From Watersipora subatra (Eukaryota; Bryozoa; Gymnolaemata; Cheilostomatida; Watersiporidae): a stretch of DNA of 64,000 bases. This document shows positions 596 to 46,818 of the stretch, piece by piece (within the stretch, counting starts at the first letter, position 1; every line of letters starts with the position of its first letter). The notes beneath the pieces were generated by a model. The model saw nothing but the letters and a program-made list of their open reading frames with translations. It was not told the DNA's origin and ran no database searches. Made by a program: the position numbers and the translations under genes. Where the stretch lies: NCBI RefSeq assembly GCF_963576615.1, contig NC_088711.1, forward strand, positions 57,082,248 to 57,146,247. Reading direction: 5' to 3'.

Positions 596-692
596 GCTTC
601 AACCAGTGCTGCTTCAACATCCTCAGTAACATACAGGCCCACTGTGACCTCCTCTCGCACTACATGCTGCTCAGCAGCGGCTGACGGATCTG
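596..692 (+). CDS. Exon 1 of the zinc-finger/SR gene (first in window)
   Basis: A pyrimidine-containing acceptor ending in aacag at 595 is followed by 32 open codons rich in Ser, Thr and Ala, with a CC pair near the end. The donor GTAAAT leaves phase 1, which the next exon needs. No start codon fits, so an earlier exon outside the window is expected. Low complexity makes this one of the less certain exons. Confidence 0.5.
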
Positions 693-3600: not shown

Positions 3601-6600
3601 GAACTTAATATTTGTATTAATATTGATATTAATATTTGTATTTAAAACTTATCTGTTCAATTATAGCTTTCAAGTAATTTTCTTGCCAATCATCTGGCTG
3701 GAAGATTCTTATGACATCCTGTGCCACCTCATATCCAATCGTTAAGTAAATAACCTACTTCATGTTACATGACTGCTTGTATCAAGTGTGTCTGCTTGTA
3801 TCGGTCAGAGATTCACCATGTTATTTTTGAGTATCAAGTCATTTATTCTTTGTCAGATACTGTATAAAACTTATCACGTATATGGCATCGTTAATTGCCT
3901 ATCCAAGTTATCAGTTATACACCGTTATTAGTTATATTATCAGTTAACACCGATATTTAGCTGATTCAATTTTATACAATATCTTTTCACTTTTTACCAA
4001 CTTTTTCTTATGTTCTACTAACTCAACCATTTCTTCTGCCTCATTTTCACTCAACCAATAATAATTCTTATGTTTTTACTAGTTTATGTCTGTAATTAGC
4101 ATTAAGTTTATTAAGTGCCACTGCGAGTTTGTTGTTGTACTATAAAAGCAAATTAAAATTGTTCGTCGTCTGAAACAAGACCGTAAACTTATAAAAATCA
4201 ACTTTTTGCGCTTGATTATGTTTGCAACACATGCAAAATGTTAAGAAGAAAAGTTATTACCTCATATATGCATATGATCGTACACTCTGTCTCATCAGAT
4301 GCCCATATCAATATGCAAAGTTATGGATCTACGTTGATTTACTCCAAAAACACTTTGTCAGCGAAACACGAAGATAACATTTCCATTTTTCTGTTCTTAT
4401 CATACCGCTTTATTGGGAAACCAAAATGAACTGCTTGGATCAAGTTTGCTTGTATTTCATATTGTGTATTGTTGTTGATCGTGACACTACTGTGTTAGCA
4501 TCTGTCTTATGTTGTTGTTCGTTCTGGTAGTTCTATATTCAGTGTAATTTACCACACAAGTAAATTGTCATAACAGTTGAAACTGTTTATTCATTTATTT
4601 TTATGGTTTATTTTAGCGAGTGAAGTCGCAAAGCTTACATTTAGTAATGGAAGCCGTACTTCTGTGAGCAGCCCAAAAGTGAGCACCGTTACAACGGCCT
4701 TGCAGGACAAACTGACTGTCAGCTCAATTCCTCTTCCGTCAATTCAGTCTGAAGTGAACCGATCGCTTTCAGCTGTTTCGACGACACCATCCATTACACA
4801 AGCGCGTTCTTCCATCACCAAGCCAAAGTTAAAAATGCGAAATGGCCACAAGCCTGTGAAGGCTACATCTCATGATAAACCTAGCGATAAAGTGAAATTC
4901 AAAATGGTTCCTGAAAGTATTTCTGGTTCCAATGCAAGCATCAAATCTAAAGCAAACATCGATTTTAAAACTAATTTTAGTGTCGATACAAGCAGCAAAT
5001 CCAAACCAAGCATCGATTCTAAATCTAGCCTCAATTCACATGCAATACTCAAATCCAAAGCAAGTATTGATTCTGAACCTAGCATAAGTTCCGATGCCAG
5101 CCTGAATTCAACAGCTATCATCAAAGCCAAACGTACTTCCAAATCTAAAGCCACCACCGACTTTAATACAAGCCCACATTCCAAAGTTAGCTATGAACCT
5201 AAAGTTGGCTTTAATTCCGAAACTAGCCTCGATTCCAATGTTAGCTTTAAATACAAAACTAGTCTTGAATCCGATGTTAGTCCTGATTCAACGTTAAAGG
5301 CTGGCTCTACAGTTAGCATCAACTCAAAAGTTGAGAATGCTACGGAATCTACAGACAACACAAACAACAACGCTCGCCTTAGCAAACATCAAGACACTCA
5401 TGGTACCGCAACGTCTTTGGCCATGACCTCAATCGAAAACACTCATTCGGCTAATGAGAAGAAAGAGTTGAAGCAGACAGGCAAGAGGAAGCACCAGAAA
5501 GAAAGATATCTGATAAATGAGTTACTAGCAGAAGAGCCAGAGCAATCTCCTTCTACAACATTTCAGCTGCTTATTTGGGAAATCTACTATAACTACTTTG
5601 CTGAGGTAAAGTTTATGATATAGTCAGCATTATTTACGTTTATGAGGACGGAACTCGTATCCTTACATTTAGCCACGAGTGAATGAGTAGTTTCTATACT
5701 TTTTTGATCACGTAATTACGTTCCAGGTTAGATATAAAAGCTGATGTTATAGATAATCTTTGAAGATACTTTCATCTGCAATAGTTTGTACTTGTTAAAA
5801 ACAGAATGGGCCCCCTGCCATTTTATATATATCTTATATCTATCTATATATCTGTGTTTGTCACTCGTCTGTTGGTCTGTCGTTTGTGTGTCCAGTTATA
5901 GCGATAAAGTTTTATGAACGAAAAATCAGCTATGCACTGGATTTGAACTCGGAACCTCTGGTCTGCATACAGGCGAGCTAGTCGACTAAGCCACAAGGCT
6001 TATTTGCTATACAATGGAATAATTGTGCACATACTCATTACATTGCTTAAAATACTCACACTTGAAGCACTTGGCGAGATACTATTGGTTATTACTAGCA
6101 TGCTTGATCATTGCGTATCAGAGATAATTACGTATAACGTAAAAACTATTAACTTGGCTTCAGACAAGCCTCGAATTATAGTAAAGATGTAGCCTAGCTT
6201 AAGTTACTAGCTTACCAGGTAAGTTACTCAAATTCACTGTTTATTTATGTTATTATCCGTGCAACGCCGAGCATTCAACTAGTTTATATATATTTGAATG
6301 TATATATAAGCCTACATCATACTTACCGCCCTGTTTTTTAAAAATGGTTATTTGAAATTGAACTTGTTAAAGTAATAATTTTGGAAACTATTTATCATGT
6401 TGCAAATTATTCTGATTACTATTATTATATATATATAGATTGTTAGTATTATTATACTGTTGGATTTAAAATGCCATTCAAACACTTTGAGCTCATTGTG
6501 AGTCTGTAAAAATCACAGCAAATAATGTGATGTATCTGTTTGTCTGCCTGTCAGAGACCAGTGTTAGAAATGTCTCACTTCCTCATGGTGCAACTATACA

Positions 6601-9600
6601 GGATCTTAACCCACCAACTCAGCATATCTTCTCACTTCATTTGCAAGGTGAGTCACTTGCATGCTATAGTATGAGTTACTGACGTTCTCATGTGTGACTA
6701 ACATATGAGCTACTTTATTGGCAGTTTTTTATTGCAAGGCAAATCTCTTACTATAGTGAGTAGCCGGGTGAATCCAGTGTGTACTGTAGTGTCAAGTGTG
6801 TACTGTAGTGTCAAGTGTGTACTGTAGTGTCAAGTGTCTACTGTGGTGTCAAGTGTCTACTGTAGTATCAAGTGTGTACTGTAGTGTCAAGTGTGTACTG
6901 TTGTGTCAAGTGTCTACTGTAGTGTCAAGTGTCTACTGTGGTGTCAAGTGTCTACTGTAGTGTCAAGTGTGTACTGCTGTGTCAAGTGTGTACTGTAATG
7001 TCAAGTGTGTACTGTAGTGTCAAGTGTCTACTGTAGTGTCAAGTGTCTACTGTAGTGTCAAGTGTCTACTGTTGTGTCAAGTGTGTACTGTGGTGTCAAG
7101 TGGGTACTGTGGTGTCAAGTGTCTACTGTAGTGTCAAGTGTGTACTGTAGTGTCAAGTGTGTTTACATTACTGACCGAAGTGAAACATGTTAAAATGGTT
7201 TGTGACATCAGCCATAAGGGTTTGTGACATCAGACAAACAGAGATGTGAAGATTTGAAGTGACAATTGCTTTTGCTAATCATAAATTGTTCAATCAAATT
7301 CTAAGCTTGGTTGTATATAATTGAGCAAGATTGATTATGGTGTGTACCAGTTGTTTCCAACCATGTATGATTTTGCTGCAGCGGGTTGCCATCGAGTCCA
7401 CGTCGAACACTTGGTTCTTGCTGTCTTTTGTGGCAGCAAAAATGTGTTGTAAAAATGCAATTAAAATAGTGGCCACCACTTTAGTTGCTGACATACTATA
7501 ATCTCACCTCAACGTGTCAAATTGGTCCATTCTTACAATTGCTTCGTATTTTAAAATTTCTGTATGTTTAACCAATCATTTTTATGAGAATATATTGGAT
7601 TTCATATAAATCGCTTCGCAATATGTCAAAAAGTTCATATGTAGAAGTGATCACTTAACTCGTGCTACTAAGTTTACTTTTGTATTGCGATACAACTGAG
7701 TCACTGGTTTAACTATCGATGTTTTGTTGTTAGTTGTGCAAGGTGAAGGAGCAGTATAGTTTTGTCGATTATGTGACTCACACCCAGTCGATGACACATG
7801 CTCAGGTAAGTCTTGAACATCACTTCTGCGAGTGATCTTTGCAAATATGCCGCTTTTTCTTTTCGTTAAGTTTTTTCTATCAGGCTCTCGGACTGACCCA
7901 ATACAAATGGGAGAGTTCATGCAATGTTGTTGGCGCACAAGCTATTGTTCTGTTTTTGCGAATATTAAGTCTTTTTCGCCATCGCATTTGCTGAAAGTGG
8001 TCATTTTGTGGCGATTAATTCTTTTAAAATTGAGTTACCAGATCAAAGAGAGGACAACTAACAATGCCGTGTATTAGCTATCAAACTGAAGTTAGCTAGG
8101 CTGAGTTTTTTATGATGACAACTCAGGCATAAAGCTAATCACTAAACTAACCTATGAATAGAATTCAAATATGCAGCCAGTTGTCATATTTTCATACTGG
8201 AGAAGAAAAACATTTCAGGATAAAGACTGTTCATTAACTATTTGCGTTTAAAATTGCAAAGACTATGCTGATTTATAGCACAGGCAGGATGCATTGAGAT
8301 GTATGAAACATATTACCTATAGAGGGAGTCACGGTTTATTACTTTTGTAGGTTGACTGTGATTTTGAATCAATGCATGAAAAGTTGTTATAAGTAAAACC
8401 TAATACAGTATACCTATTGAAGGTCATCAGGAAAGAGCGTTACTTTTATAGGCAATGCCTATAAGTTAAATGCAAATCTTAATAACTGACCAGCACTATA
8501 CTACATGTATGTACATTGGAACGCTGTAATATGAACATTTACACTTCAGTTTATAACTATTTAAGGCCATTTTATGTTATACAGTCTTATATACTTACAT
8601 GTATTTGCTTAGTCATACCTCGACATACTAGTGTGCCAACATATGACATACCAGTGTGCCAACATACGACATACCAGCGTGCCAACATATGACATACCAG
8701 TGTGCCAACATATGACATACCAGTTTACCACCATATGACATACCAGTGTGCCAACATATGACATACCAGTATGCCAACAAATGACATCAGTGTGCCAACA
8801 TATGACATACCAGTGTGCCAACAAATGACATATCAGTGTGCCAACATATGACATACCAGTGTACCAACATACGACATACCAGTGTGCCAACATACGACAT
8901 ACCAGTGTGCCACCATACGACATACCAGTGTGCCACCATATGACATACCAGTGTGCCAACATACGACATACCAGTGTACCAACATATGACATACCAGTGT
9001 GCCAACAAATGACATATCAGTGTGCCAACAAATGACATGTCAGTGTGCCAACATATGACATACCAGTGTACCAACATATGACATACCAGTGTGCCAACAT
9101 ACGACATACCAGTGTGCCAACATATGACATACCAGTGTGCCACCATATGACATACCAGTGTGCCAACATATCACATACCAGTGTGCCAACATACGACATA
9201 CCAGTGTGCTAACATATGACATATCAGTGTGCCAACATATCACATACCAGTGTGCCAACATATGACATACCAGTGTGCCAACATACGACATACCAGTGTG
9301 CCAACATATGACATACCAGTGTGCCAACATATGACATACCAGTGTGCCACCATACGACATACCAGTGTGCCAACATACGACATACCAGTGTACCAACATA
9401 TGACATACCAGTGTGCCACCATATGACATACCAGTGTGCCAACATACGACATACCAGTGTGCCAACATATGACATACCAGTGTACCAACATATGACATAC
9501 CAGTGTGCCAACATACGACATGCCAGTGTGCCAACATATGACATACCAGTGTGCCAACATACGACATACCAGTGTGCCAACATATGACATACCAGTGTTC

Positions 9601-12600
9601 CAACATACGAGAAATGTGAGAAATGAGGAAACCTCTGAGCAAATTTTTGTCTCGAATTATGAGAGAAGTTTGAGATACAAGCAAACGAGATGGCAATGGG
9701 GCTCTAGGCCGCATACGATATGGTTCTCGATGAGGCTGCTATCGTTGCTTATGAGGATGCTGTCTCGCCGAATGTCGAAACTCCTGCTTGAGAGGCTGCT
9801 TATGAGAGGCCGCTTACGGGAACAGCATTGCTTGATTTTTCCTATCAGATCAAAAATTTTAAAGAGTTGAAAAAAGATTTATTTTTTAAAGATTTTTTAA
9901 TGATTTATAAACGCTGGCTAAAGGTGAAGATGAACATGATCCCAAATGCATGGCAAAAAGAGCCAAACCGGAAGAAATTAAGACAAATGAACGTGACAAC
10001 AAGATTAAAATTAAGATTAGGGTTAGATTAAACTCATTTTCAAGTGTGTTAAATTAATTTTAATTTACCGTTTATGTTATGTAACGTCACAAAAGTGTGG
10101 TGTACTGAACATGTCATCATGTCTCTCTCACACCGCTATTAGCCACTACCGTCTGTATCGAAGGTAAGAACTCGATACAGTACTGTACACGATAGTGTTA
10201 CAATTTATTGCAGGTCATAATCACCAGATACATGTTTGTTTCTTTGTGAGCATAGATAGTAAATTAGAACAATTAAAACACATTTTTTAGTGTAATACCA
10301 GGTTGTTTGGTAGTTTTTCAGAGAGTGAAAATTGATCAATTTGTATTTAATTATTTTATATAGAAATATTTGATTTGAGACATGAACAGAATTGACATGC
10401 GAGCTCAGTTTACGAATGCTTTGAGCTTGTATGTCGAGGTATGACTGTACTAGTCGTGCAGAGTCGTTAATTGATTCTTTGCTTGATCATCATCATATGT
10501 AGTTGTTATTTGGTTGTTTCTTGTTCTTTGTCCAACCCGCTCTATGTGGTTATGGGTTGCCATTTCTTACTAGCTGTGGGTGGTTGTTAGTCGCTAGTTT
10601 TTCTACTAGCCATAAGTGACTGATATTTTTTCACCAACTGTACATCGTTGTTAATTGGTCTTTTTGCCACTAAACATAGACTATCTCTATCATTGTGATT
10701 TACTATGTTTTAGTGTCTGACACGCCATATTGATAAGAAGGACGAGTATGGCTACCAGGTATGTTGTCAGCGCTTGTTTATTGCAATCAATTTGAATTTT
10801 AAAGTGTTGAAAAACAACTGTGTTATTTTTAACAATGGTTCTGTCTTCAAATAATTACGGTATATCAAATAATTTTATGTAATATTGACACAGCAGAGAA
10901 TATTACACCTGCACTGATCGGTGAGTACAGCACTTGTTATACCCGTTAAAAATGTGGGTTATGAACACCTGACTTGCATTAGTCACAATGGCAGCTTTGC
11001 ACACTTTGTTCAGATACCGTAATTACATATATTCTATATACACGATAATATTACATACTTATATTATTATATATAACATATATATTCAGTGTTCACATAT
11101 AGGAAGTACATCAACGATTGGACTAGTCAACAAATGGCCCGTCAGATAATTCTGTTTTTTGACTGAGATACAGTAAAGAACTGAGCTGGAGGAGGTATCA
11201 CCGCTACCCTTCATGTTTGATACCATTATGCTCCATTATAGCACAAAAATGACATGGAAAATATTTGGGCTGTCAGCTTTGTTTGTTCTCTTGTATGTTG
11301 GAATGAGCTTTTCAACTCAATGTTTTGCCTATACTTCAAATAATCATGAGTTATTCCCGTAGATTGACCTTCTGCAAAAAGAAGTATACTTCAATGGGTC
11401 CAGCGAACTTGTAAACTGGTTTTTTATTACACAACCAAGTCGCTTTCATGAATTTTTTTCAAACACAGTTATTTTTAATAAGTAAGTTCGCATTGCGTAC
11501 TAATCTATTTATATAAATATAATTCTCAAAATTCGTGTGTATGTAGCTCAGTTTGTCCAGCTATAGCTATTAAAATATTGGAATGAAAAATCCGTATCAC
11601 AGAAGATTTGATCTCGGAACCTACCTTTCGCCAGGCAAATGCCTTATCATTCTTTACTTTCTGTGGGCGATATATGTCGCTAAGTGGGTGAAAATACTCT
11701 ACCGTTCTCAGCAAGTAGTTAGCTCTTAAGGCGCGGTCACACTATCGCTCATCGACGATTAGCTGTGGGAGTGACCGTAACGATGAACTGCGATGTCATT
11801 TTGCGATGAGCTGCCAACATAATCGTTGCTAGCAATGATGCGATAGACTTTCAACATGTTGAACGTTGACACCGGTGATGGTGACTATTAGCATCTTGAT
11901 TGGCTGTTTTTTGACTGCATCGGATCCAATTTCAACAGTTATGAAGATTATGGTTAGTTCGTATTCGCAAGCATGGGCGAAGAACTACACTCGTGATGAA
12001 TTGCATAATCAGATAATTAAAAGATAACAAAAGGACCCTCAATGCCACCAATGCAAGGTCGTAATTTTTAATTGGCTGTTGGTTAGCGATCACTGGTTAG
12101 CGATCACGTACAGTACAGCTAATCGCTCATAGTGTGCACACCTTATCATTGGTGATGACGTAAAAATAGCTAGTTGTAGTCCATCGCATAGCTAAACGTT
12201 GATTTGAGTGATAGTGTGTACGGGCCTTTATTAGTAAGCTTACTCAAATTAGCCATTGGCAGTGTGCCAAGCTAATGGCAAGTGGCAAGTAACTACATTA
12301 CCTCTTATTGTTTATAAGCTGATTTTTAATACCTGTGCAACGCCGGACATTCCACTAGTATATATATAAATCTCAGCGTTAATCATCAACCATTCGTGTG
12401 TCCAATTATAGCGATTAAAATTTTGGGACGAAAAATCCGCTTTTCAACTGGAATTGAACTCGTAACCACTAGTTCCGCAGACAGGCGAGCTAATCACTAT
12501 GTTGTTCTTGCCATACTAAGGGATAATTGTGCCATACTTATGCTTGTGAAAATAGTATTGGTTACTACTAGCACATTAGAAGATGATGGTAGCATGAGAG

Positions 12601-36600: not shown

Positions 36601-39600
36601 AATCCATCAACCCTTAGTCTGTTCTACCAGTTTTCTTGTTTTAGGATGATAATCTTTGCCAACTCCCGTTCCATTCAAGCTTATCTTTTGTGCCTCTTTA
36701 AACTTATCCTGTGGTAATGTGTAAAATTATATTTACTAGCACTTGGTAAATTACAGCGCTTTGGTAAATTTTAACAATGTGCATGTTGCAGGGACTTGAT
36801 AAAAATAATGATGTATATATAATAGAGATTTGGTAAATCTAATAATGTACATATTATAGAGCTTTGGTGAATACGTGCACTATAACATATATATTATAGA
36901 GATTTGGTAAAATTTTAATAATGTACATATTATAGATAATTGGTATTTATATTGAAGCGCATAATATAGAGATGTGGTACTTTTAGAGGAGCGTATCCTT
37001 TCGTTTAGGCACCGACAGCATGACTACCAGCTGCAGCAAGTTGTCAGCTGGTAGTCAAGTTGTTATGTCAGTTAAAAGTTTAGCCTTGTCAACCTACATT
37101 GCGCAAATGTTCATACCCTAGGACACTTTGGTATTCGCCTCATCTAACTTTCGCGTTTTCGCAGAGTCATCCTCTCGCGAAAATTTCATGAGCGAAACTA
37201 AACTATCATAACGAACAAGCGAAAACGCGGAATTAAATAGCATTTTTCATTGATAGTCCAAGAAACAAATGGCAGCAAGCGATCAAATTGCATTATCGAT
37301 CTCGTCCACACAATTCTACCTGCGGTTCACAATTACAAACTAGTCCCAGATGGAAAAAAATTTTCTTACCGGTGAACCGAACCTGAAGAATCTAATTATG
37401 TTTGTTCCACTGCATTTATTTTCACATCACTATATTTTCGCACTCATCAGAGCTGCGAAATTAAATTGCATCGAAATTTTACTCTGTATGCTACTCACGA
37501 AACTAAATACTAGTGAAATATAAGTGTCCTAGGGTATTCACATACCTCCTGATAGACCTAAGGTTTGCAATTGATAGGTCTTGTTTTAGTAGAGGCTAGT
37601 TTATCATCGTATCATTCGCAACTGTTATTCCTCATAGCACTATCGGTGGCTTGTTGGTATAGTTGACATTTTAAATAGTTGATATTAGGAACTTAGAAAA
37701 GAAAGTGATATGTAAATAAGCACTGATATACTGTTATCATACTGCATAGCGGTACTTTTACAATCGTGATTACTACCCTGTTGTCATTTCTTTACTAAAT
37801 CTTTCTAAACATGTGGTTAACATTTCAACCTGCCCATTGGTTAGATAGGCATCAAATTTTTTAAATCATAGCTCTACAAAGCATCTGACTATACCTAATG
37901 AGTGTGTACATAGGTTTTTATTACTGTTTGCAAGCAAATGTCCACGCAAGCGATTATAAACATCTTAGTGGCCTTTTCAGTGTCTAAATCAAGCAAAACT
38001 GACCAGACGGGTTCATCAGATGCGGTTTCTGGACAAATAAAAGCTACAGCTCCGAGAAGATTGAGTCTGAACAGCGTCCAGGTTAATATATATATACTAG
38101 GTGAATGCCCGGCGTTGCACGGGTAATAAAAAAAGCTTTTCTCCAGAAGATTTATTTTTAATCAACATATACAACATCTATCATTCTAACTTTTAAATGA
38201 AGGTGTTTATTTCTGTGTACTGTGCTATTTCTGTGTAATTCATACTGTACCAGCTGCAGTGCCTACTACAGATCTATAATAGTGATTGCAAGCCTTGTTA
38301 GCTATATGAGTTTACGCATTTTTCTTCAGTTATAGGCATGCATTTTTCTTCTGGTATGGTTTTACTCAACGCTAGCTGCAGTGTTTAACATGAAGCCATG
38401 AAAGATTGGCATGTATTCCAAGTACATGTATGTGCCAAATTTATTTCATGGTATAGCCAGTTGGACAGTGTAGTGTATTGGATAAATGGATGTCTACAGA
38501 ACCGGAGGTTGCGAGTTCAAATCCAGTTTGCAGCGGGTATCTCATTCTTAGAACTTTATTGCTATAGCTGAACAAACAAGCGGACAAACATTGAGATTTA
38601 CAGTAGTGATACAAATTATGGAACCGCCTCTAATTCTCGTTACATAGCAATGAATTCTGAGTTGTGTTTGTTTTTTCTACAATCAAAATTTTACATAACT
38701 ATAAAAAGTTATATATCATTTGAATCGTCACAATGTTGGCTTTTTGATAAACTTTAATTAAAACCACATCGTATTTTCTATAAAAATATTATTAGAGGTT
38801 TACTGAAAGCTGTCAGAGAGTTACTGTACAGTTGTCATTTCTATTAAATAGTGTCTGACCAAAAGTCATAAAATAACATATTTCTTTTCTTTGAAATGGC
38901 TTTTATTGTGAATTAACTTAAAGACAAGCTTTATCGTAGGTAAAATACATTCTGGTTTAAACTTTTCACCAGGTTTCCTTCTTACATAATTGTTGCCAGA
39001 GTGATTTTGCACAGTAAATGTGCCCTCATCGCTGAATAATACTGCTCTCCAGTCTTCTGGTGACCAATTCACATGATCTTTTGCCCATTGTAGACGAGCC
39101 TTTTTTGCTGAGATGATAACAAAGGTTTTCTACGAGCTTTACAGCCTCGTAAGCCATGATCTCTCAATGATTTGCAAACAGTTGATGGTGCTAACTCTGT
39201 ACCTGTTGATTCTTTTAACTCACTGGCTAGCAGAGGACTGGTTAGATGTCTATCAACCAAAGAATGCCTCACTAGGCGTCTGGTCACTCGATCTGTTGCT
39301 AGCTTTTTCTTTCCCCTACCAGCCCTTTCTTCAACTTGACCAGTTTCCTTCCATCTGCAGATTGTTGTAAATACACCTTTCTTAGAGCAACCTACATCCC
39401 TTGCAATTTTCCTCTGCGATTTCCCTTGCTAATGAAGGTGAATTATTACAGCACGCTTTTCTTTCGTGAGATGTTGAGGCATGATGATGAAGTTATTAGA
39501 ATGACTTTTACTGAGAGCAGAAGGACTTTTCAATACTACTTGGGTTACGTTGCATAATGAACAACATCTCACTCAATGCAATTGTTGTCTTAGATGATTG

Positions 39601-42600
39601 TTAAACTGAGCAGATCAAAGAATTTGGAAATTCTAGACATCATTCACCAGACTACTGTTTTTGAAAAAAGTGACTTGTTATGAGACACCCTGACTAGTTG
39701 CACTTTTAACTGCACTAGCGATGGAATTATGTTTGGATGCAGAAAAAAACTAAACAATGCGACAGCTGATAAAATTCCCTTTCTAATGATATATAACTTT
39801 TCATATCTGGACTGAATATAACTAATATGAGAGCCATTATAGCGCATTAGTTACTCAAACTCAAAGGTGGTTCCATAATTTGTATCACCACTGTATATAT
39901 ATAGATTATATAAAGTTCAGGAACATATTACATATGGTAGTAGATGCAACAGTCTGAGATTTTCCGGCCATTTTTTTACTTGGGCTTTCTTGGAGTAGAT
40001 TCATGCATTTCTTTTGTATATGCAGGGTATTTTCCAAAGTGTCAAGTCAGCCATGGTTTACAATGACAGCAATAACACTCTGGCACCATCCACTGTCAAA
40101 GCCACAAGTCAACTGGTAAGTCAGTCGTCAGCAGGCAAGATAACATCTTCAAATGTTGAAAGCAAGATTATAGCCCAGTCTGTGGACAACGCAAAAAATA
40201 CACATGTGGAAGATGCAAAAAAATCAAGTCTTCTATCATCTGCACTTACAAGCTCTACACATTGTGAGAAAAAAAGTCAAAAAACGAAAGAAAGGAAGCC
40301 ACTTTCAGAAAAGAAAAGAAAGGATGTGGCAAACACTGCAGAGTCTGATGAGGCTGCTAAAAAGTCTAGCAAATGCAGTCCAAGGGAAAAAACACTGTCG
40401 CCAAGCGATTCTGATCGAAGGACTACTAGTTCATCTTCTGCCAGGTATTCGCAGACCTCACATCGATCTGTATATGGTCAACCCTATCGTAGTTACAAAT
40501 ATGACTCTAGTACATCGTTCAGACACAGAAACTATAAAAATTCCTTTCAGCAGAATCGAAAGTCCTATAGCAGGCGTGACTCTTCAAGTCGCAGGTCTAA
40601 CTCTCGAAGTAGAAAGCGCAGCTACAGGAGCCGGTCGAGGTCGAGCAGCTCTGAAAGAATTTCTAAATCTAAGCATCAGCGGTCAAAAGAAAGTTCTAAA
40701 AGGCATCGTTATAGGTCAATCTCTAAATCAGGGGACAGTCGAGACAGCAGCCAAGAGCGAGCTTCACACAAAAAGGCTAGAACAAGGGTTAAAGCGGGTC
40801 ATCATTATAGTTATAAATCACCAGGCAACAGCAAAAGGAGACGGAGTAGAAGATCGAGGTCGGAAACGAGTAGCAGCTCATCTGATCGGACCCAACACTC
40901 ATCCAGATCATCACGCAGTAGTAAGATACGCAGTCGTAGGTCAAAGTCATTTGCTAGCAGTTCTGACAGTTCTTCAACTGAGAGCACTTGCTCTAGTTCT
41001 ACTATTTCAAGACGCAGGCAATGCAGTAGTAGCCGTTCACTTTCTACTTGCTCTCCGCGTGGTCAAAGACGTGGGAAAAGAAGCAGGTCTCCTTCGAAGT
41101 CATCGCCTCTAGCGTCTAAGAGAGTGGATGTGCATCGCCAATTTCGCTACATCTCTCCCCCTCCCTTTCCCCTTGGGAACTCTAGCATATATTGTATTAA
41201 TCCTGATTTTGAAAAGCTCAATGTGCGATCACTTTCACCTGTCTCCGCCGATGTTGTTTCGCGCACTGTGGAGAATGCGTGGAAGTTTTATCACAGCAGA
41301 TATTACAGCCAGTCTGAGCTAAGTACAGATATCGTTTATGATGCTCAAGTACTTTTTCTAAAATCGTATTCTGGGTTTTTTATGCAAGCTCCCAATTTTG
41401 AAAACTGTTACAACTCTCTATATAAACCGGAAGATCTAAAGGCTGCGTTACGCATGAGACTAGATCGTCTTTCTCCAGGGCCTGCAAAAGACCCCAATGT
41501 CACCATAAGTAAGCGAGAGTCTCCAGAATACCAGAATAATATGGTCACTTCAAGTCAACCTGCCTTGAAATCAGATGCTGCCCATCAGCATTCCAACAAC
41601 ATTCCTAATACAGCAGAAAGTATGAAAACACTTATAAAAACGGGGGCTGTTCCTGGCTTATCTTTGATGGATGATTCTGAGACATGTGCCTATAATATGT
41701 CTGCTTCATCTACAGTTTCTGCTGATCCGGCAAATGATGGTATTAGGAATGCTATTGAATCGCTTAGGCAGTCATATTCTGGAGCCTCCGCCAAGGAAGA
41801 AACATTTGACCATGGAGATCTTGATTCACTAACCTTGGCTGAACGAAAAACTTCCGAATCTTTTATTCCATTCTTAAATGATGGTACATTGGATGAGGTA
41901 AGAAATCTTCCAGATAACCAAGAATCAAAGAAGATATCTAATTCAGATATGGAGTTACCGTGGCACTATAAGCAGCATAGTGCATCTCGTAGCCCTGAAG
42001 ATATCTGTGAAACTGTGCTCTCCAAAGAAGATGCATATACGACTAACAATCTCTCTACCAATATGTTGTCAATGAATAACAACCATCAGAATGCTTGCAA
42101 AAAGTACAGCCAAAATGTGATCAGTGAACAGAAACAAGAAGTAGACAAGAAAGAAAAAAGTAAGAAGGAAGAAGACAAGCTTCAATCTGTTGTAAGTAGC
42201 ACATCTGTATAATCCAGATCTTTGGCATGATATACTGTCGTAGCACATTTATGGGCAGTTAAATATATGTTTGTATTTCAGGGAGGTGTTGTCATGTCTG
42301 CATTCATTGCTGATGTAGTTAAAGGCATAATACGTCTTTCTACTCTGGTAAGTACTACGTACTTGCACTCAATTTACAATATCATTTGTTAACTTGTACA
42401 ATATAGTTATGAAATGTGCTCTACCATTGTACTTCATGGATTTTCAGCAGCTTTATTTCATTGGTTTTATTATTCCACCTAAGCAAAGGCATGCCCAAGG
42501 ATGCTGAGAGGTAGGACTATAAATATTTACTGTATACTAGCTGTGCTACCCGGCGTTGCCCGGGTAATAAATGTCTTCGCACAGAAAATTGGTTTGTGTT

Positions 42601-45600: not shown

Positions 45601-46818
45601 ACCAAGTCGTACACCTACCCAGAGTCATATAGTCACACAGGGTCATATGCAGTAACTAAGAGCTAATACATGCATAAAAATTAATTTACTCATATATTCA
45701 TATAATAGTGTCGTTATACACTGCAGTTGCACAAGCTTAAGGTGTATCGGAGTGATATTGTACTTCTTGTAGAAGCATTTCGTTGAATATGTAGACTGGA
45801 AAATGGTCATTCTGTTAACCCTATTTTAGTAGTTGGGTAGGATATGAACTAGCCAAAATGGGAGCTTTAGACTAGTTACAGAGAGTAGTGTTTGCTAGTA
45901 GTAGACTAGTTACAGAGTAGTGCTTGCTAGTAATAGAGTAGTTACACAAAGTAGTGTTTGCTAGTAGTAGACTATTCACAGTAGAGTTTGCTAGTAGTAG
46001 ACTAGTTACACAGAGTAGTGTTTGCCAGTAGTAGACTAGTTACACAGAGTAGTGTTTGCTAGTAGTAGACTAGTTACACAGAGTAATGTTTCCTAGTAGT
46101 AGACTAGTTCACAGAGTAGTGTTTGCTAGTAGTAGACTAGTTACACAGTGTATGTTTGCTATTAGTAGACTAGTTACACAGTGTATGTTTGCTAGTAGTA
46201 GACTAGTTACACAGAGTAATGTTTCCTAGTAGTAGACTAGTTACAGAAAGTAGTGTTTGCTTTAAACAGACTTATCACCATTTCTGTAAAAAAACAAGTT
46301 TTCATACGATTTGTAACGTATTTTCAATGCGTAATTGTTTTGAAACGTTTTGCATAAATTTTATTACAATGTAGATAGTGGCAGTTTGTTAAATGTGGAC
46401 CATAAAAGCTGTCAATTTGAAACCAAAACTACATGAGACTTTAGCCAGACGCTGTTCAGGTGTCTTTTCATCTACCAATAGTTCTCAAGTTTAAGACTTA
46501 TTAAAAGTTAACCGTTGATAAACCGGTGCACATCAAGTATATTAGTACATTTGTGCATTGCAGCAAACTGATACAGAGTTGTCCCCCACAGAAATGCTCA
46601 ATGAAATGGAGCATGAGCAGGAGAAGATGCACTCAAGGATGATAACTCCTGCAGGGCACTACATGATAAACATGGCAAAGCGCATTCTCTCGCCCGAGTC
46701 AGGGCAGAGCTTGCAGCTAGAATTTGACAAAGCTGATCCAGAAGCTGTTGAACTCATGAAGACATTGGACGTACGAGTCGTAGAACTCATTGCGAGCACG
46801 CCTTTCCTTAGCGAGTAG
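596..46818 (+). CDS. Large spliced gene: multi U1/matrin-type zinc-finger, SR-rich protein (5' end outside window)
   Basis: Twenty-three exons with consensus splice sites and matching phases join into one frame of 4,866 nt (about 1,621 aa plus stop): 596-692, 2016-2120, 4617-5605, 6555-6647, 7734-7805, 10714-10758, 14778-14819, 15167-15262, 17026-17068, 19092-19139, 19503-19520 (optional), 20202-20248, 20708-20797, 21962-22033, 22441-22494, 31396-31452, 33398-33445, 34716-34805, 35470-35641, 37981-38081, 40026-42191, 42282-42347, 46564-46818. Model domains in order: Ser/Thr/Lys-rich region (1-390), four C2H2 fingers with long His-His spacing (Cys/His 427/430/444/450; 480/483/501/508; 596/599/611/617; 671/674/691/697), SR-rich block (about 975-1160), C-terminal exon. 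U1/matrin fingers and RS domains are typical of nuclear RNA- or DNA-binding and splicing-related proteins, so such a role is inferred. Exact orthology is not recognised. The first methionine lies upstream of the window. The weakest exons are 1, 10, 11 and 16. Confidence 0.8.
2016..2120 (+). CDS. Exon 2 of the zinc-finger/SR gene, Cys-rich segment
   Basis: Acceptor ttgtag, donor GTTCGT, phase 1 in and phase 1 out. It encodes a compact, non-repetitive segment with CCLRC, GRCRDW and PPPKSTDDIV motifs. This looks like a genuine conserved block, possibly a metal-binding or protein-binding motif. I do not recognise the family. Confidence 0.55.
2480..2630. repeat. AT-rich palindromic microsatellite
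   Basis: Long TA/TAATAT tract with internal dyads, able to fold on itself, in the intron between exons 2 and 3. Confidence 0.6.
3335..3610. repeat. Dispersed repeat, relative of the 43026 arm
   Basis: TAGCCTGTCTTGACAAACTG to CTTTAGTAGAACTTAA matches 43020-43300 over its whole length with many substitutions. The stretch 3040-3150 matches the reverse of 43700-43800 and 48660-48780, so this is part of the same composite family. Confidence 0.7.
4617..5605 (+). CDS. Exon 3 of the zinc-finger/SR gene: Ser/Lys/Asp low-complexity repeats
   Basis: 989 nt, open throughout, from a ttttag acceptor (phase 1) to donor GTAAAG (phase 0). An in-frame ATG at 4577 followed by a hydrophobic stretch could suggest a separate secreted protein. 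However, the ATG lies in the polypyrimidine/acceptor region and the phase fits exon 2, so I treat it as intronic. The body consists of degenerate repeats of the type SK-S-x-x-S built from Ser, Lys, Asp and Asn. The end changes to a basic stretch, then an acidic and an aromatic segment (IYYNYFAE) that leads into the exon 4 helix. Confidence 0.7.
5851..6283 (+). mobile_element. Helitron-like/tRNA-containing repeat, copy A
   Basis: Starts TCTGTGTTTGTC and ends with a GC-rich block (CCGTGCAACGCCGAGCATTC) followed by ACTAG and T, at AT-rich flanks. A 5' TC and a 3' CTAG before T are Helitron hallmarks, but the hairpin is weak. On the minus strand, 5935-5997 resembles a tRNA, with B box GGTTCCGAGTTCAAATCC, so a tRNA-derived SINE is the alternative. 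Confidence 0.5.
6555..6647 (+). CDS. Exon 4 of the zinc-finger/SR gene, ends in first Cys of finger 1
   Basis: 31 codons, phase 0 at both ends, acceptor tgtcag and donor GTGAGT. It encodes a helical, Leu-rich segment ending HFICK. The Cys is the first zinc ligand of finger 1, and the intron falls between the two Cys ligands. Confidence 0.75.
6776..7161. repeat. 19-bp minisatellite, about 20 copies
   Basis: Unit TGTACTGTAGTGTCAAGTG with T/C-type variants (gtgtcta, gttgtg, gtggtg). Lies in the intron between exons 4 and 5 of the zinc-finger/SR gene. Confidence 0.9.
7734..7805 (+). CDS. Exon 5 of the zinc-finger/SR gene, finger 1
   Basis: 24 codons, phase 0, acceptor gttag and donor GTAAGT. 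Together with HFICK of exon 4 it gives C-x2-C-x13-H-x5-H. The ligands are the Cys of ICK, the Cys of LCK, the His of VTH and the His of MTH. The H-x5-H spacing is characteristic of U1/matrin fingers rather than classical Kruppel fingers (H-x3-4-H). Confidence 0.8.
8611..10447. mobile_element. Tigger-like element containing a 23-bp minisatellite
   Basis: The left end AGTCATACCTCGACATAC (8611-8628) is complementary to the right end GTATGTCGAGGTATGACTG (to 10447, followed by TA). About 100 bases inside the right end match the Tigger element at 54385-55634, including the block with GCGAGCTCAGT. The minisatellite begins directly after the left end. The region 9610-10330 is decayed interior without a usable transposase. 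Confidence 0.6.
8625..9606. repeat. 23-bp minisatellite, about 42 copies
   Basis: Unit approximately TGTGCCAACATAYGACATACCAG, with point variants (accatacg, aacaaatg, gtaccaac). Because 23 is not a multiple of 3, all frames cycle every 69 bp, and several long stop-free but meaningless frames result on both strands. The unit contains CGACATACcAGtGTG, which resembles the adjacent transposon end, so it probably arose from it. Confidence 0.9.
10714..10758 (+). CDS. Exon 6 of the zinc-finger/SR gene, linker
   Basis: A 45-nt exon, phase 0 at both ends, acceptor tttag and donor GTATGT. It encodes a charged linker with the motif HIDKKDEYGY directly after finger 1. Confidence 0.65.
11524..12357 (+). 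mobile_element. Helitron-like repeat, copy C, split by a MITE
   Basis: TCTCAAAATTCGTG start, AGCTATAGCTATTAAAAT core, tRNA-like stretch (about 11600-11640), then the TTA-flanked MITE, then the usual end GTGCAACGCCGGACATTCCA plus CTAG. Directly followed by copy B after a short TA run. Confidence 0.5.
11729..12227. mobile_element. PIF/Harbinger-like MITE with TTA target duplication
   Basis: Ends AGGCGCGGTCACACTATCGC and the complement of AGGCCCGTACACACTATCAC, flanked by TTA on both sides (11726-11728, 12228-12230). 499 bp, no transposase. It interrupts a Helitron-like repeat. Confidence 0.65.
12371..12776 (+). mobile_element. Helitron-like repeat, copy B
   Basis: TCTCAGCGTTAATC start, GATTAAAATTTTGGGACG core, tRNA-like part on the minus strand (B box around 12450), and an end CCAGGCATTCAACTAG that has lost the GTGCAACGC part. 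Confidence 0.5.
14312..14568. repeat. 18-bp minisatellite, about 14 copies
   Basis: Unit TATAGTTGTATAGCTTTG with single-base variants. It lies 210 bp before exon 7. A unit length divisible by 3 makes several open but repetitive frames. Confidence 0.9.
14778..14819 (+). CDS. Exon 7 of the zinc-finger/SR gene, ends in first Cys of finger 2
   Basis: A 42-nt exon, phase 0, acceptor ggcag and donor GTAAGT. It ends in SWFCD. The Cys is the first ligand of finger 2, with the same exon/ligand arrangement as exons 4 and 17. Confidence 0.7.
15061..15432. repeat. Left arm of an inverted duplication containing exon 8
   Basis: About 370 bp, including exon 8 and both flanking intron parts, matches the reverse complement of 18450-18797. 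The best preserved region is the exon (1 mismatch in 96). Small indels occur in the intron parts. Confidence 0.85.
15167..15262 (+). CDS. Exon 8 of the zinc-finger/SR gene, finger 2
   Basis: 32 codons, phase 0, acceptor ttacag and donor GTAAGC. With exon 7 it gives C-x2-C-x17-H-x6-H starting FCD-ICP. An almost identical copy of this exon (95 of 96 bases) lies in reverse orientation at 18597-18692. Confidence 0.8.
15826..15985. repeat. 27-bp minisatellite, about 5-6 copies
   Basis: Unit TGATTTATCACTACAYGAGYAGGTCCT, in the intron between exons 8 and 9. Confidence 0.8.
16262..16660. repeat. 400-bp polypyrimidine tract
   Basis: The plus strand is almost only C and T for about 400 bases, in irregular CTTTT/CCTCTT/CTCTCT mixtures. 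It lies in the intron between exons 8 and 9. Homopurine-homopyrimidine tracts can form triplex DNA. The open frames over it (Lys/Arg/Glu or Phe/Leu/Ser only) are compositional. Confidence 0.85.
17026..17068 (+). CDS. Exon 9 of the zinc-finger/SR gene
   Basis: A 43-nt exon, phase 0 in and phase 1 out, acceptor ttacag and donor GTAAGT. It encodes a helical stretch, EFIKDAKSLQD. It sits between the two arms of the inverted exon-8 duplication. Confidence 0.7.
17440..17545. repeat. Degenerate 19-22 bp repeat
   Basis: Four or five variants of GGCTCGACGCTGCATAGACT in a row directly left of the TTAA-flanked MITE. Confidence 0.5.
17558..18066. mobile_element. piggyBac-like MITE flanked by TTAA
   Basis: Ends CTCTTTGGCTAC and, at the right, the complement of CTCTTTCCCTAC, each bordered by TTAA (17554-17557, 18067-18070). 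TTAA is the piggyBac target. It contains two copies of GCCGATGTATYGGCTAT near the left end. 509 bp, no transposase; lies between exon 9 and the inverted exon-8 copy. Confidence 0.55.
18450..18797. repeat. Right arm of the inverted duplication
   Basis: Reverse complement of 15061-15432, situated in the intron after exon 9. The spacer between the arms is about 3.0 kb and contains exon 9, the polypyrimidine tract and the TTAA-flanked MITE. Confidence 0.85.
18597..18692 (-). pseudogene. Inverted copy of finger exon 8 (antisense to host gene)
   Basis: Read on the minus strand, these 96 bases equal exon 8 except for one base (Leu to Ile before the last Lys). The copy also keeps the ttacag acceptor and GTAAGC donor plus more than 100 bases of flanking intron on both sides. 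It cannot be spliced into the plus-strand transcript. It is either a recent inverted segmental duplication or, less likely, an assembly artefact. Confidence 0.85.
19092..19139 (+). CDS. Exon 10 of the zinc-finger/SR gene (candidate)
   Basis: A 48-nt exon with phase 1 on both sides, acceptor tttcag, donor GTAAGA. It encodes an Ala/Ser-rich segment with PLFSFQ. Placed here because the phases fit exon 9 and exon 12. It is short and low in complexity, so only moderately certain. Confidence 0.5.
19503..19520 (+). CDS. Candidate 18-nt micro-exon (exon 11)
   Basis: An 18-base open segment between an attcaag acceptor and a GTAAAT donor. It keeps phase 1 on both sides and would insert six residues (SCKAKD). 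Omitting it leaves the frame intact, so it may be alternative or spurious. Confidence 0.25.
20021..20065. repeat. 11-bp repeat, 4 copies
   Basis: CAACAAGGCAG repeated four times just upstream of exon 12, within its intron. Confidence 0.8.
20202..20248 (+). CDS. Exon 12 of the zinc-finger/SR gene
   Basis: A 47-nt exon, phase 1 in and phase 0 out, acceptor tttcag and donor GTAATT. It encodes QRIIAPIPAKVKVAE, a compact basic/hydrophobic segment that precedes the finger 3 exons. Confidence 0.6.
20708..20797 (+). CDS. Exon 13 of the zinc-finger/SR gene, ahead of finger 3
   Basis: 30 codons, phase 0, acceptor ttacag and donor GTGAGT. It encodes a helix (KKFDAMVRFQVEAK) and ends KFLCSMDS. The FLC is placed like the FC at the ends of exons 4, 7 and 17. 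Confidence 0.75.
21962..22033 (+). CDS. Exon 14 of the zinc-finger/SR gene, finger 3, GC donor
   Basis: 24 codons, phase 0, beginning CKNC and ending in H-x5-H: C-x2-C-x11-H-x5-H. The acceptor is ttttag. The donor reads GCAAGT, a GC-AG intron that otherwise fits the consensus. No GT donor nearby keeps the frame. Confidence 0.75.
22441..22494 (+). CDS. Exon 15 of the zinc-finger/SR gene
   Basis: 18 codons, phase 0, acceptor tttgcag and donor GTAAGT. It encodes NLYTKLETFGPKNLFLEF, which continues finger 3. The following intron is 8.9 kb and contains a P-type MITE, a large palindrome and the 30-bp minisatellite. Confidence 0.75.
22733..22810. repeat. Dispersed repeat shared with 26019-26094
   Basis: GGGAGTTGTGTGCACATGTG and AATCGCTTCGCTCTGTTTGG recur with small changes at 26019-26094. 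Origin unknown. Confidence 0.55.
24327..25114. mobile_element. P-type MITE with 8-bp target duplication
   Basis: Ends CATAGATATATAAACCTAGA and its complement to 25114. Both sides are flanked by the exact 8 bp AGTTATGC (24319-24326 and 25115-25122). The ends match the P-type element at 54182-56980. Contains a perfect 16-bp GC-rich hairpin at 24701-24737 (CTTTGGGTGGGTGGGC) and purine-rich inner repeats; no transposase. Confidence 0.8.
25224..25926. mobile_element. 703-bp palindromic foldback element, 8-bp target duplication
   Basis: Left arm from CACAGGTGTCCTT; right arm ends AAGGACACCTGTG. The arms (about 320 bp each) are almost perfect complements around a small centre near 25555-25600 that itself folds (AACTATCGGG with CCCGATAGTT). 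Flanked on both sides by the exact duplication GTTATTAT (25216-25223 and 25927-25934), which fits the hAT target pattern nTnnnnAn. Short open frames are mirrored between the two arms and are not genes. Confidence 0.85.
27071..30083. repeat. 30-bp minisatellite, about 100 copies, with higher-order repeats
   Basis: Unit CCTCCATAGTACCTAACCTC followed by TCTTAACATG or variants (TCTGAACCTG at the left end, TCTTACCATA, TCTTCACATA). The 30-bp register is kept without indels for 3 kb. Higher-order duplications are visible: 27241-27510 repeats at +330 bp, about 27721-28280 repeats at +600 bp, and 29191-29340 repeats at +720 bp. It lies in the 8.9-kb intron between exons 15 and 16. Reverse-strand open frames of up to 551 codons are by-products. 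Confidence 0.95.
30084..31395. other. Intronic sequence, nothing clear
   Basis: Unique-looking intron between the 30-bp minisatellite and exon 16. A phrase around 30820 (AGCTAAAGCATGACTGAC) recurs at 33140, indicating old dispersed repeats. Short open frames lack support. Confidence 0.4.
31396..31452 (+). CDS. Exon 16 of the zinc-finger/SR gene
   Basis: 19 codons, phase 0, acceptor cttatag and donor GTTAGT. It encodes GDPFYGHFESQDLIVKEAK, a non-repetitive segment without stops, in the phase required by exons 15 and 17. Confidence 0.6.
31980..32095. repeat. 12-bp minisatellite, about 9 copies
   Basis: Unit GACTACAGACGC, in the intron between exons 16 and 17. It translates as RRDY repeats in one frame, but without splice sites around it. 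Confidence 0.85.
32100..33397. other. Intronic AT-rich sequence
   Basis: No exon, RNA or complete mobile element seen between the 12-bp array and exon 17, apart from the short phrase shared with 30820. Confidence 0.4.
33398..33445 (+). CDS. Exon 17 of the zinc-finger/SR gene, ends in first Cys of finger 4
   Basis: 16 codons, phase 0, acceptor cttgtag and donor GTAAGT. It encodes a Lys/Tyr-rich stretch ending KKHFCG, which mirrors SWFCD (exon 7) and HFICK (exon 4). Confidence 0.7.
34716..34805 (+). CDS. Exon 18 of the zinc-finger/SR gene, finger 4
   Basis: 30 codons, phase 0, acceptor ttacag and donor GTACGT. It starts ICP like exon 8. Together with exon 17 it gives C-x2-C-x16-H-x5-H, ending THISSTEH. 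Confidence 0.75.
35470..35641 (+). CDS. Exon 19 of the zinc-finger/SR gene
   Basis: 172 nt, phase 0 in and phase 1 out, acceptor cttgtag and donor GTTAGT. The first part has three Cys and one His (GCIYMCAKDCIINH), possibly another metal-binding element. The second part is Ser-rich. Confidence 0.75.
35801..35962. repeat. 56-bp tandem repeat, three copies
   Basis: Copies start at 35801, 35857 and 35913 (GCGCAACTGAAGCTTGTATT onward) and are practically identical, so the amplification is recent. Intron between exons 19 and 20. Confidence 0.9.
36735..36985. repeat. Degenerate tandem repeat, about 40 bp unit, 6 copies
   Basis: Repeated core ATTATAGAGATTTGGTAAAT and AATAATGTACAT with substitutions and indels, in the intron between exons 19 and 20. 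Confidence 0.65.
37981..38081 (+). CDS. Exon 20 of the zinc-finger/SR gene
   Basis: 101 nt, phase 1 in and phase 0 out, acceptor ttttcag and donor GTTAAT. It encodes a Ser/Thr/Lys-rich stretch ending APRRLSLNSVQ. A Helitron-like repeat begins only 15 bp after the exon. Confidence 0.65.
38097..38596 (-). mobile_element. Helitron-like repeat, copy F
   Basis: Minus orientation: TCTCAATGTTTGTCCGC at the 38596 end; at the left CTAG followed by GTGAATGCCCGGCGTTGCAC. The plus strand at 38460-38535 is tRNA-like, with B box GGTTGCGAGTTCAAATCC. It begins 15 bp after exon 20. Confidence 0.5.
38601..39893. mobile_element. Tc1/mariner element, decayed
   Basis: Inverted ends CAGTAGTGATACAAATTATG and, at the right, CATAATTTGTATCACCACTG, flanked by TA on both sides (38599-38600 and 39894-39895). 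At 1,293 bp it is slightly shorter than an intact Tc1 element. It sits in the intron between exons 20 and 21, at the TC end of a Helitron-like repeat. Confidence 0.85.
38866..39482 (-). pseudogene. Broken Tc1 transposase
   Basis: Minus strand from ATG at 39482 (MPQHLTKEKRAVIIHLH). An in-frame TAG follows at about codon 18, then the paired helix-turn-helix region (RKIARDVGCSKKGVFTTICR, GRGKKK, SPLLASELKESTGTELAPST). A frameshift near 39100 leads into WSPEDWRAVLFSDEGTF, which holds the first catalytic Asp. After ECILPTIK the family sequence is lost, so the second Asp and the third acid are deleted. Not functional. Confidence 0.85.
40026..42191 (+). CDS. Exon 21 of the zinc-finger/SR gene: large SR-rich exon
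   Basis: A 2,166-nt open exon, acceptor tgcag and donor GTAAGT, phase 0. An initial Ser/Lys-rich stretch with basic KERKPLSEKKRKD is followed by about 190 residues dense in RS, SR, SS and RRS, typical of splicing-related RS domains. After that comes a non-repetitive block with aromatic motifs (ENAWKFYHSRYYSQSE and GFFMQAPNFENCYNSLY) that looks globular, then an acidic/Ser tail ending in a Lys/Glu coiled stretch. Tyr/Arg-rich elements just before the RS block may bind RNA. The alternative +1 frame stays open for 302 codons only because of the Arg/Ser codon bias. Confidence 0.9.
42282..42347 (+). CDS. Exon 22 of the zinc-finger/SR gene
   Basis: 22 codons, phase 0, acceptor atttcag and donor GTAAGT. 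It encodes a hydrophobic/helical segment (MSAFIADVVKGIIRLSTL). The downstream intron (4.2 kb) contains a Helitron-like repeat with internal palindromes and a 34-bp minisatellite. Confidence 0.75.
43026..43690. repeat. Inverted repeat pair, arms about 210 bp
   Basis: Left arm CCTGTCTTGACAAGCTGTTG to about 43235; right arm ends CAACAGCTTGTCAAGACAGG at 43686. The arms are well conserved, with a spacer of about 245 bp. The arm sequence recurs at 3340-3600. Confidence 0.75.
43877..44229. repeat. Palindrome of about 350 bp
   Basis: The arms pair from CTTAAAGATTGACTTACAAG inward (ACAGTTATTTGG, AGATTCACCATGTC, GTGGAAATGTGATTACA) around a short centre at about 44035-44060. Probably a foldback MITE inside copy G. 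Confidence 0.7.
45868..46262. repeat. 34-bp minisatellite, about 11 copies
   Basis: Unit GTAGACTAGTTACACAGAGT plus AGTGTTTGCTAGTA, with small deletions in several copies. Intron between exons 22 and 23. Confidence 0.85.
46564..46818 (+). CDS. Exon 23 of the zinc-finger/SR gene, C terminus and stop
   Basis: 84 codons plus TAG, acceptor ttgcag, phase 0. The protein end is charged and helical (EMLNEMEHEQEKMHSRM, then AGHYMINMAKRIL) and finishes ELIASTPFLSE. High complexity and normal codon use suggest a conserved C-terminal domain of unknown family. The first AATAAA downstream is at 47618-47623, so the 3'UTR may be about 0.8 kb. Confidence 0.8.
   Translation, partial: QTDTELSPTEMLNEMEHEQEKMHSRMITPAGHYMINMAKRILSPESGQSLQLEFDKADPEAVELMKTLDVRVVELIASTPFLSE

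Follow-up and report, generated by a model that had tools for sequence, protein, structure and literature searches.

A candidate bryozoan RS-domain gene with a duplicated two-finger module and two domains shared with two paralogues

Introduction

Matrin-3 is a large nuclear protein, mostly without characterised domains, that contains two zinc fingers, two RRMs and a motif of the form [S/G][IL]LGxxP (PMC4365034). The consensus used by Matrin-3 for PTB binding is given as [S/G][IL]LGx(hydrophobic)P, and the splicing activity that was tested requires the RRMs together with the PTB-binding motif and is left unimpaired by zinc finger deletion (PMC4365034). Two further proteins, ZNF318 and ZNF638 (NP220), are termed matrin-type zinc finger proteins and appear among the proximity partners of TASOR, a subunit of HUSH, in a second study (PMC7532188). 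The nearness of ZNF318 and ZNF638 to TASOR makes a chromatin-silencing role an alternative to a splicing role. ZNF638 joins a finger and an RS-rich stretch in one protein, as does the protein described here, and has RRMs and single fingers that lie far apart. ZNF318 has two adjacent fingers and an RS-rich stretch placed ahead of the fingers, and is not known to have RRMs, a second finger pair or the domains that we call A and B.

Bryozoan genomes are little studied, and large, low-complexity RS proteins are readily overlooked by annotation. The window, the whole stretch of 64,000 nt analysed here, belongs to chromosome 4 (57082248-57146247) of Watersipora subatra, a bryozoan whose published assembly is given as 783.70 Mb in 240 scaffolds, with 11 chromosomes, 67.13 Mb for chromosome 4 and a mitochondrial genome of 14.14 kb (PMC12902671). 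Our own-genome searches covered 783,720,542 bases in 239 contigs, contig 4 contributing 67,125,504 bases. Unlike Matrin-3, the protein encoded in the window has a four-finger block, an RS domain, domains A and B and no RRM match, and it differs from ZNF638 in its four-finger block and two new domains. With SR-related proteins it shares an RS domain (40 RS/SR dipeptides), but it has no Pfam match to an RRM or other RNA-binding domain. No RS protein with four matrin fingers is named in the titles and abstract openings surveyed in the open-access literature. We put at about 0.5 the probability that the locus is one bryozoan gene for an RS-domain, matrin-finger-like nuclear RNA-processing cofactor with a duplicated two-finger module and domains A and B.

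Gene model

On the plus strand, a chain of exons defined by splice sites and phases runs through the window to a stop codon at 46818. An earlier, sequence-only reading had joined 23 exons without a frame break, starting at 596. The chain is indeed phase-compatible, but the revised model has 19 exons within the window, and 596..692 is exon 4, the ATG exon lying at window -6561. The gene start is thus about 6.6 kb upstream of the window, where three further coding exons fall at -6561..-1116 and an in-frame stop precedes the ATG by 39 nt. The revised model comprises 22 exons in all (5406 nt, 1801 aa), and its phases agree at all junctions, an agreement that is no independent test, as the exons were chosen with phase in view. 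In assembly tzWatSuba1.1 (GCA_963576615.1) it spans OY755161.1:57075686-57129065. The first gene model had 1820 aa and included segment 31396-31452, which the revised model omits. By the sequence evidence a large gene is real, and the earlier exon model requires correction. The layout proposed in the earlier reading is supported by the spliced plus-strand model: a Ser/Lys-rich part comes first and is followed by four Cys/His fingers with H-x5/6-H, then by an SR/RS-rich part and finally by a new C-terminal part. The features are as follows:

-6561..-6528 (L015 3439-3472), plus strand: exon 1, with the ATG; sequence and phases
-2887..-2365 (L015 7113-7635), plus strand: exon 2; sequence and phases
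-1326..-1116 (L015 8674-8884), plus strand: exon 3; sequence and phases
596..692, plus strand: exon 4, Ser/Thr-rich; phase-compatible splice sites, coding score -6.0, the worst of three frames
4617..5605, plus strand: exon 5, Ser/Lys-rich repeats; open over 989 nt, coding +10.7 against -53.5/-93.8
6555..6647, plus strand: module 1 exon a, 93 nt, ending with the first Cys of finger 1; splice sites and phase, chaining, module alignment
7734..7805, plus strand: module 1 exon b, 72 nt, finger 1, C-x2-C-x13-H-x5-H; splice sites and phase, module alignment, chaining start 7743
10714..10758, plus strand: module 1 exon c, 45 nt; splice sites and phase, chaining, module alignment
14778..14819, plus strand: module 1 exon d, 42 nt, ending with the first Cys of finger 2; splice sites and phase, chaining, module alignment
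15167..15262, plus strand: module 1 exon e, 96 nt, finger 2, C-x2-C-x17-H-x6-H; splice sites and phase, module alignment, inverted copy
17026..17068, plus strand: inter-module linker exon; splice sites and phase, chaining
20202..20248, plus strand: inter-module linker exon; splice sites and phase, chaining exact at one of four penalties and otherwise with start 20209
20708..20797, plus strand: module 2 exon a, 90 nt; splice sites and phase, chaining, module alignment
21962..22033, plus strand: module 2 exon b, 72 nt, finger 3, C-x2-C-x11-H-x5-H, followed at 22034 by the one GC donor of the model; splice sites and phase, chaining, module alignment
22441..22494, plus strand: module 2 exon c, 54 nt; splice sites and phase, chaining, module alignment
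33398..33445, plus strand: module 2 exon d, 48 nt, ending with the first Cys of finger 4; splice sites and phase, module alignment, coding -1.6 with another frame at +0.6
34716..34805, plus strand: module 2 exon e, 90 nt, finger 4, C-x2-C-x16-H-x5-H; splice sites and phase, module alignment, coding -2.8 against -3.8/-6.2
35470..35641, plus strand: post-finger exon into a Ser-rich linker; splice sites and phase, coding -2.8 against -6.8/-13.1
37981..38081, plus strand: Ser/Lys-rich linker exon, joining fingers to RS region; splice sites and phase, coding -1.4 with another frame at +1.5
40026..42191, plus strand: RS exon, 722 aa, with domain A at about 41217-41483; splice sites and phase, paralogue match for domain A
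42282..42347, plus strand: small phase-0 exon; splice sites and phase, counterpart of an 81-nt exon in both paralogues
46564..46818, plus strand: last exon, domain B and stop codon; in-frame coding +17.0, common to both paralogous loci (L068 and L069)
31396..31452, plus strand: repeat-derived segment, open and spliceable, dropped from the model; dispersed-repeat copies

A candidate exon at 45375-45505 was left out, its phase, read from the sequence, being a misfit with the last exon; it is also without a clear paralogue counterpart (best local scores 16-23).

Coding evidence

Coding potential was scored with a model trained only on 30 stop-free kinase and RRM matches from the same genome. In frame, the finger-region exons total +21.6, and the two other frames give -65.8 and -51.5; the in-frame total still counts the later-dropped exon 31396-31452 (+3.5). 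Random open intron segments of the same gene average -41.2 (sd 12.4), with none of 2000 sets reaching +21.6. Negative in-frame scores were obtained at 14778 (-1.5), 33398 (-1.6), 34716 (-2.8), 35470 (-2.8), 37981 (-1.4) and 596 (-6.0), as well as for exons 2 and 3 (-2.1 and -2.2) and the RS exon (-39.8); among these, the in-frame value is the best of the three frames except at 596, 33398 and 37981. For the RS exon, the other frames score lower still (-64.6 and -181.2), and the amino-acid bias of the RS region is the likely cause of its low value under kinase-based training. This score by itself was insufficient to call the RS exon.

Exons were also chained blind to the fingers, on the finger region after cutting out the tandem repeats, at penalties 3-6. 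Exact recovery was seen for 10, 7, 7 and 7 of the 15 model exons, within chains of 25, 16, 16 and 9 exons, which thus include exons outside the accepted model. Forward scores at the four penalties (65.7, 46.0, 32.1 and 20.6) compare with 30.0, 16.6, 7.8 and 4.1 on the reverse strand, and the maxima in 20 Markov-3 simulations (48.4, 26.8, 15.0 and 8.3) lie below the forward score at each penalty. The exons at 34716, 35470 and 37981 were never given exactly at any of the four penalties, that at 7734 was found with a shifted start only, and those at 15167 and 33398 were exact at the lowest penalty only; the dropped exon at 31396 is among those recovered, at two penalties. Chaining of the whole region with repeats kept was not decisive, forward exceeding reverse marginally at one of five penalties and reverse being higher at the other four, and the repeat-free finger region was analysed in its place. 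The high reverse-strand scores of the whole region are probably due to tandem repeats with long open frames.

The exon at 31396-31452, first accepted, was dropped because it lies in a dispersed repeat. GDPFYGHFESQDLIVKEAK (31396-31452), with its surroundings, has 27 other genomic matches at E up to 1 in an own-genome protein search in which 47 candidates were scored, and 7 of the 8 copies that were read by eye are directly followed by the sequence that follows 31396-31452 in the window intron. The segment is 57 nt long and runs from phase 0 to phase 0, so that it can be skipped, and judged by these copies it is probably not a conserved exon. The dispersed repeat (window 31396-31452, L060-L067) holds a conserved open segment, DPFYGHFESQDLIVKEAK, and may be a source of new exons.

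The four fingers and the duplicated module

The four modelled fingers read C-x2-C, then x13, x17, x11 and x16 in turn, then H-x5/6-H. Ligand spacing of the form C-x2-C ... H-x5/6-H is that of U1/matrin-type fingers. The U1/matrin-type label given in the earlier reading therefore fits all four fingers by spacing, but none of the four has a profile match above the curated cut-off. In the Pfam search that the same reading had proposed, no finger matched zf-U1, zf-met or zf-C2H2_jaz at E up to 10, both controls matching; the test is blunt, since of the presumed sequences of six human matrin-type fingers two pass a cut-off of these profiles. The only Pfam match of finger 4 is to a KIN17 finger (E 1.1), and that of finger 1 is to a DUF (E 0.1). 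The AKAP95 Pfam domain is not matched by the finger region and is matched at 1.3e-57 by a presumed human AKAP8 stretch. Among PDB matches, those of the finger region to three chains of an archaeal TATA-binding protein (query residues 168-232; E 6.3e-4 to 7.5e-4) and to AcrIF14 (E 0.27-0.28) were set aside, as were two of the C-terminal part (E 0.61 and 0.89), because they are single-sequence matches in agreement with no other evidence.

The fingers are arranged as two five-exon, two-finger modules (residues about 619-882 of the 1801-aa model), with exons of 93-72-45-42-96 nt and 90-72-54-48-90 nt, and the introns inside both modules are all phase 0. An intron separates the two cysteines in fingers 1, 2 and 4; those of finger 3 are displaced as a pair with respect to the intron. 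The protein alignment of module 1 with module 2 scores 50 against a null of -12.4 (sd 11.1), with none of 3000 shuffles as good. When scored exon by exon with the Cys and His residues held fixed, the module score was reached by 1 of 3000 shuffles, and the true exon order ranks first of 120 by a narrow margin (68.5 against 67.5).

Some of the short exons were picked by eye, partly for completing fingers, and the fixed-Cys/His shuffle, the coding score and the chaining answer this selection bias in part only. It could be argued, then, that the fingers are an artefact of choosing short exons that give Cys/His pairs, and that the true gene consists of the large exons only. Finger 3 is the sole finger complete within one open frame, and the window has 12 instances of a bare C2H2-like pattern (5 on the plus strand, 7 on the minus strand). 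We nonetheless regard this explanation as very unlikely, given the independent coding score of the finger-region exons (0 of 2000 sets), the recovery of 7-10 of 15 exons by finger-blind chaining, and the module symmetry that persists with Cys and His fixed.

A further argument against an artefact comes from the finger-2 exon, which has an inverted copy 3.3 kb downstream. Window positions 15068-15433 and 18451-18794 form an inverted duplication in which the whole finger-2 exon with its splice sites recurs on the opposite strand, in the next intron. Between the copies, 1 of 96 exon sites differs, compared with 17 of 245 flanking sites (gaps excluded; Fisher one-sided p 0.019), a contrast that would follow from selection acting on the exon but not on its copy. 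At this duplication the transcript could fold back and pair with itself.

RS region, domains A and B, and the paralogues

The RS exon carries its 40 RS/SR dipeptides within 722 aa, which gives the RS domain of an SR or SR-related protein, and then domain A; the densest 100 residues include 63 that are R or S. The N-terminal RRM of a classical SR protein was not matched in Pfam searches with pieces jointly covering the protein.

Searching the genome with the C-terminal part retrieves two paralogous loci, one on chromosome 1 (L068) and one on chromosome 4 (L069), with both matches in order at each; the DNA upstream of their RS exons lies before 75,737,000 and before 1,733,200, respectively. At both loci an RS-rich open frame that includes domain A precedes a small exon and, after it, domain B, which is the order seen in the window; the open frames hold 35 and 59 RS/SR dipeptides. 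Domain A of L068 and L069 is 38 and 40% identical to that of the window, with 29 of 100 columns invariant, while for domain B the values are 30 and 38%, with 19 of 91 columns invariant. The small phase-0 exon is 81 nt in both loci, and the two versions score 68 with each other, where the best of 1000 shuffles reaches 39; its window counterpart at 42282-42347 is more distant, scoring 32 with L069 (27 of 1000 shuffles as high) and 18-21 with L068. In each paralogue the exons on either side of the small one offer phase-0 splice sites, and in L068 a donor of another phase is slightly stronger (0.4 against 0.1). A back-search with domains A and B of L069 returned only the window gene, L068 and L069 at E up to 1. 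The single new C-terminal domain of the earlier reading thus resolves into two: the RS exon encodes domain A, the last exon encodes domain B, and the small exon lies between them. Both domains are common to the two paralogues. Domains A and B have no Pfam match above cut-off, and their PDB profile searches gave E 0.1 or worse. No relative of domain A was found in the scanned bacterial and archaeal genomes or viral contigs, with domain A as the one query for each.

For the whole protein likewise, no Pfam match exceeds the cut-off and the PDB matches are weak and unconvincing, so that the architecture is possibly undescribed, as had been suggested, within the bounds of these two collections. Matches below the Pfam cut-off were set aside, the best being PhageMin_Tail in the C-terminal part (E 0.0032), and a DUF1388 match on the L068 RS repeats (3.8e-6, just above cut-off) is low-complexity.

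The paralogue signal is limited to the RS exon and the next two exons. The N-terminal part has no convincing match elsewhere in the genome, and a search of the own genome at E up to 10 gave no finger paralogue. Apart from the repeat-borne segment, the finger region has matches with E below 0.05 only inside this gene and in the inverted copy of a single exon; nor does zf-U1, jaz or zf-met occur near L068 or L069 among the matches listed. Because no finger paralogue was detected, the fingers may be outside the A/B family, and the locus could hold two adjacent genes, a finger gene that ends near 35641 or 38081 and an RS/A/B gene that begins near 40026 and is the true member of a three-gene family. 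In-frame ATGs near the start of the RS exon's open frame would permit a start there, and the bridging exons 35470-35641 and 37981-38081 are weakly coding and were never exact in finger-blind chaining. Against two genes, the phases join across the 35470-40026 bridge, and the RS exon opens at a good acceptor (score 4.1). We consider two genes unlikely. The weakly coding exons 33398, 34716, 35470 and 37981, which complete finger 4 and bridge the fingers to the RS region, count against the one-gene reading, and the model is least secure where the fingers join the RS exon.

The PTB-type motif and the relation to Matrin-3

The N-terminus contains GLLGYCP at residue 34, a single match to the PTB-binding consensus that was noticed post hoc, after the consensus, and in which Cys occupies the hydrophobic place. 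When the 1820-aa first model was shuffled 20000 times, a consensus match arose in 64 of the shuffles, and the RS frames of L068 and L069 contain none. Tandem RRMs, a mark of MATR3 and ZNF638, were not found, and the PTB-binding (PRI) motif known for Matrin-3 is present by sequence. No RRM matched in pieces that jointly cover the protein, some searched at E up to 10 and the others at E up to 1; the same genome gives 95 RRM matches elsewhere. In 36 comparisons with the presumed sequences of nine human fingers, made with Cys and His fixed and mostly not significant, the best partner of finger 1 is the second Matrin-3 finger (z 4.1) and that of finger 4 is the first (z 4.4); this resemblance is a lead and not a test.

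These likenesses, together with the RS-rich region, could mark the gene as a derived bryozoan member of the MATR3/ZNF638/ZNF318 group in which the RRMs were lost and the fingers doubled, and ZNF318 and ZNF638 are themselves called matrin-type zinc finger proteins (PMC7532188). Such descent strikes us as improbable, for no RRM match occurs anywhere in the window protein, its domain order differs, domains A and B match nothing above cut-off, and the human finger sequences behind the comparison were presumed ones, with most of the 36 values not significant.

Proposed role

Under the one-gene reading, a single host gene would produce a large, mostly low-complexity nuclear RS-domain protein, whose four fingers would have arisen by tandem duplication of a two-finger module. 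Their U1/matrin-type spacing makes binding to nucleic acid most likely, the candidates being DNA, structured RNA and double-stranded RNA. Through its RS region the protein is most likely recruited to splicing factors and speckles, and GLLGYCP may bind the splicing regulator PTB (cf. GILGPPP in Matrin-3). Domains A and B, which recur in two sister genes, probably serve for protein-protein contact or dimerisation. Overall, we infer a scaffold or co-regulator of pre-mRNA processing, in which the fingers would hold RNA or DNA while the RS and PTB contacts would hold splicing factors; a role as a nuclear RNA-processing co-regulator has about even odds. The sequence itself shows the gene structure, the module duplication, the paralogue family and the lack of catalogued domains, and from these we infer nuclear location, nucleic-acid binding and a part in splicing.

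A bolder proposal, possible but doubtful, is that three RS-domain nuclear proteins of this bryozoan form an undescribed family defined by domains A and B, and that the window member is a functional counterpart of Matrin-3, RRM-free, with a duplicated two-finger matrin-type block and a PTB-binding motif. If true, two unnamed conserved domains would be joined to RS regions, the locus would offer a clean example of finger-pair doubling in which each exon was copied and the introns were retained, and a PTB-binding matrin-type regulator operating without RRMs would become a testable idea.

Neighbouring elements and tandem arrays

Rfam gave no match within the window. On its minus strand, exons at 58385-59242 read as what we take to be 40S ribosomal protein SA, and a piece at 39069-39428 is presumably of a Tc1/mariner-like transposase. 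Another such piece lies at window coordinates 69318-70343 (L016). In L016 we also take candidate exons at about 66481-73835 on the plus strand to resemble a TPR-repeat gene, and about 12.6-18 kb upstream of the window (L014) lie open frames that are presumably retroelement-like, with an integrase-like stretch. Within the gene, the intron after finger 1 contains a 23-bp tandem array of 43 copies (window 8622-9607) with open frames on both strands. The 10.9-kb intron between fingers 3 and 4 contains a 30-bp tandem array of 99.5 copies (27100-30083), the minus strand of which is open over 558 codons.
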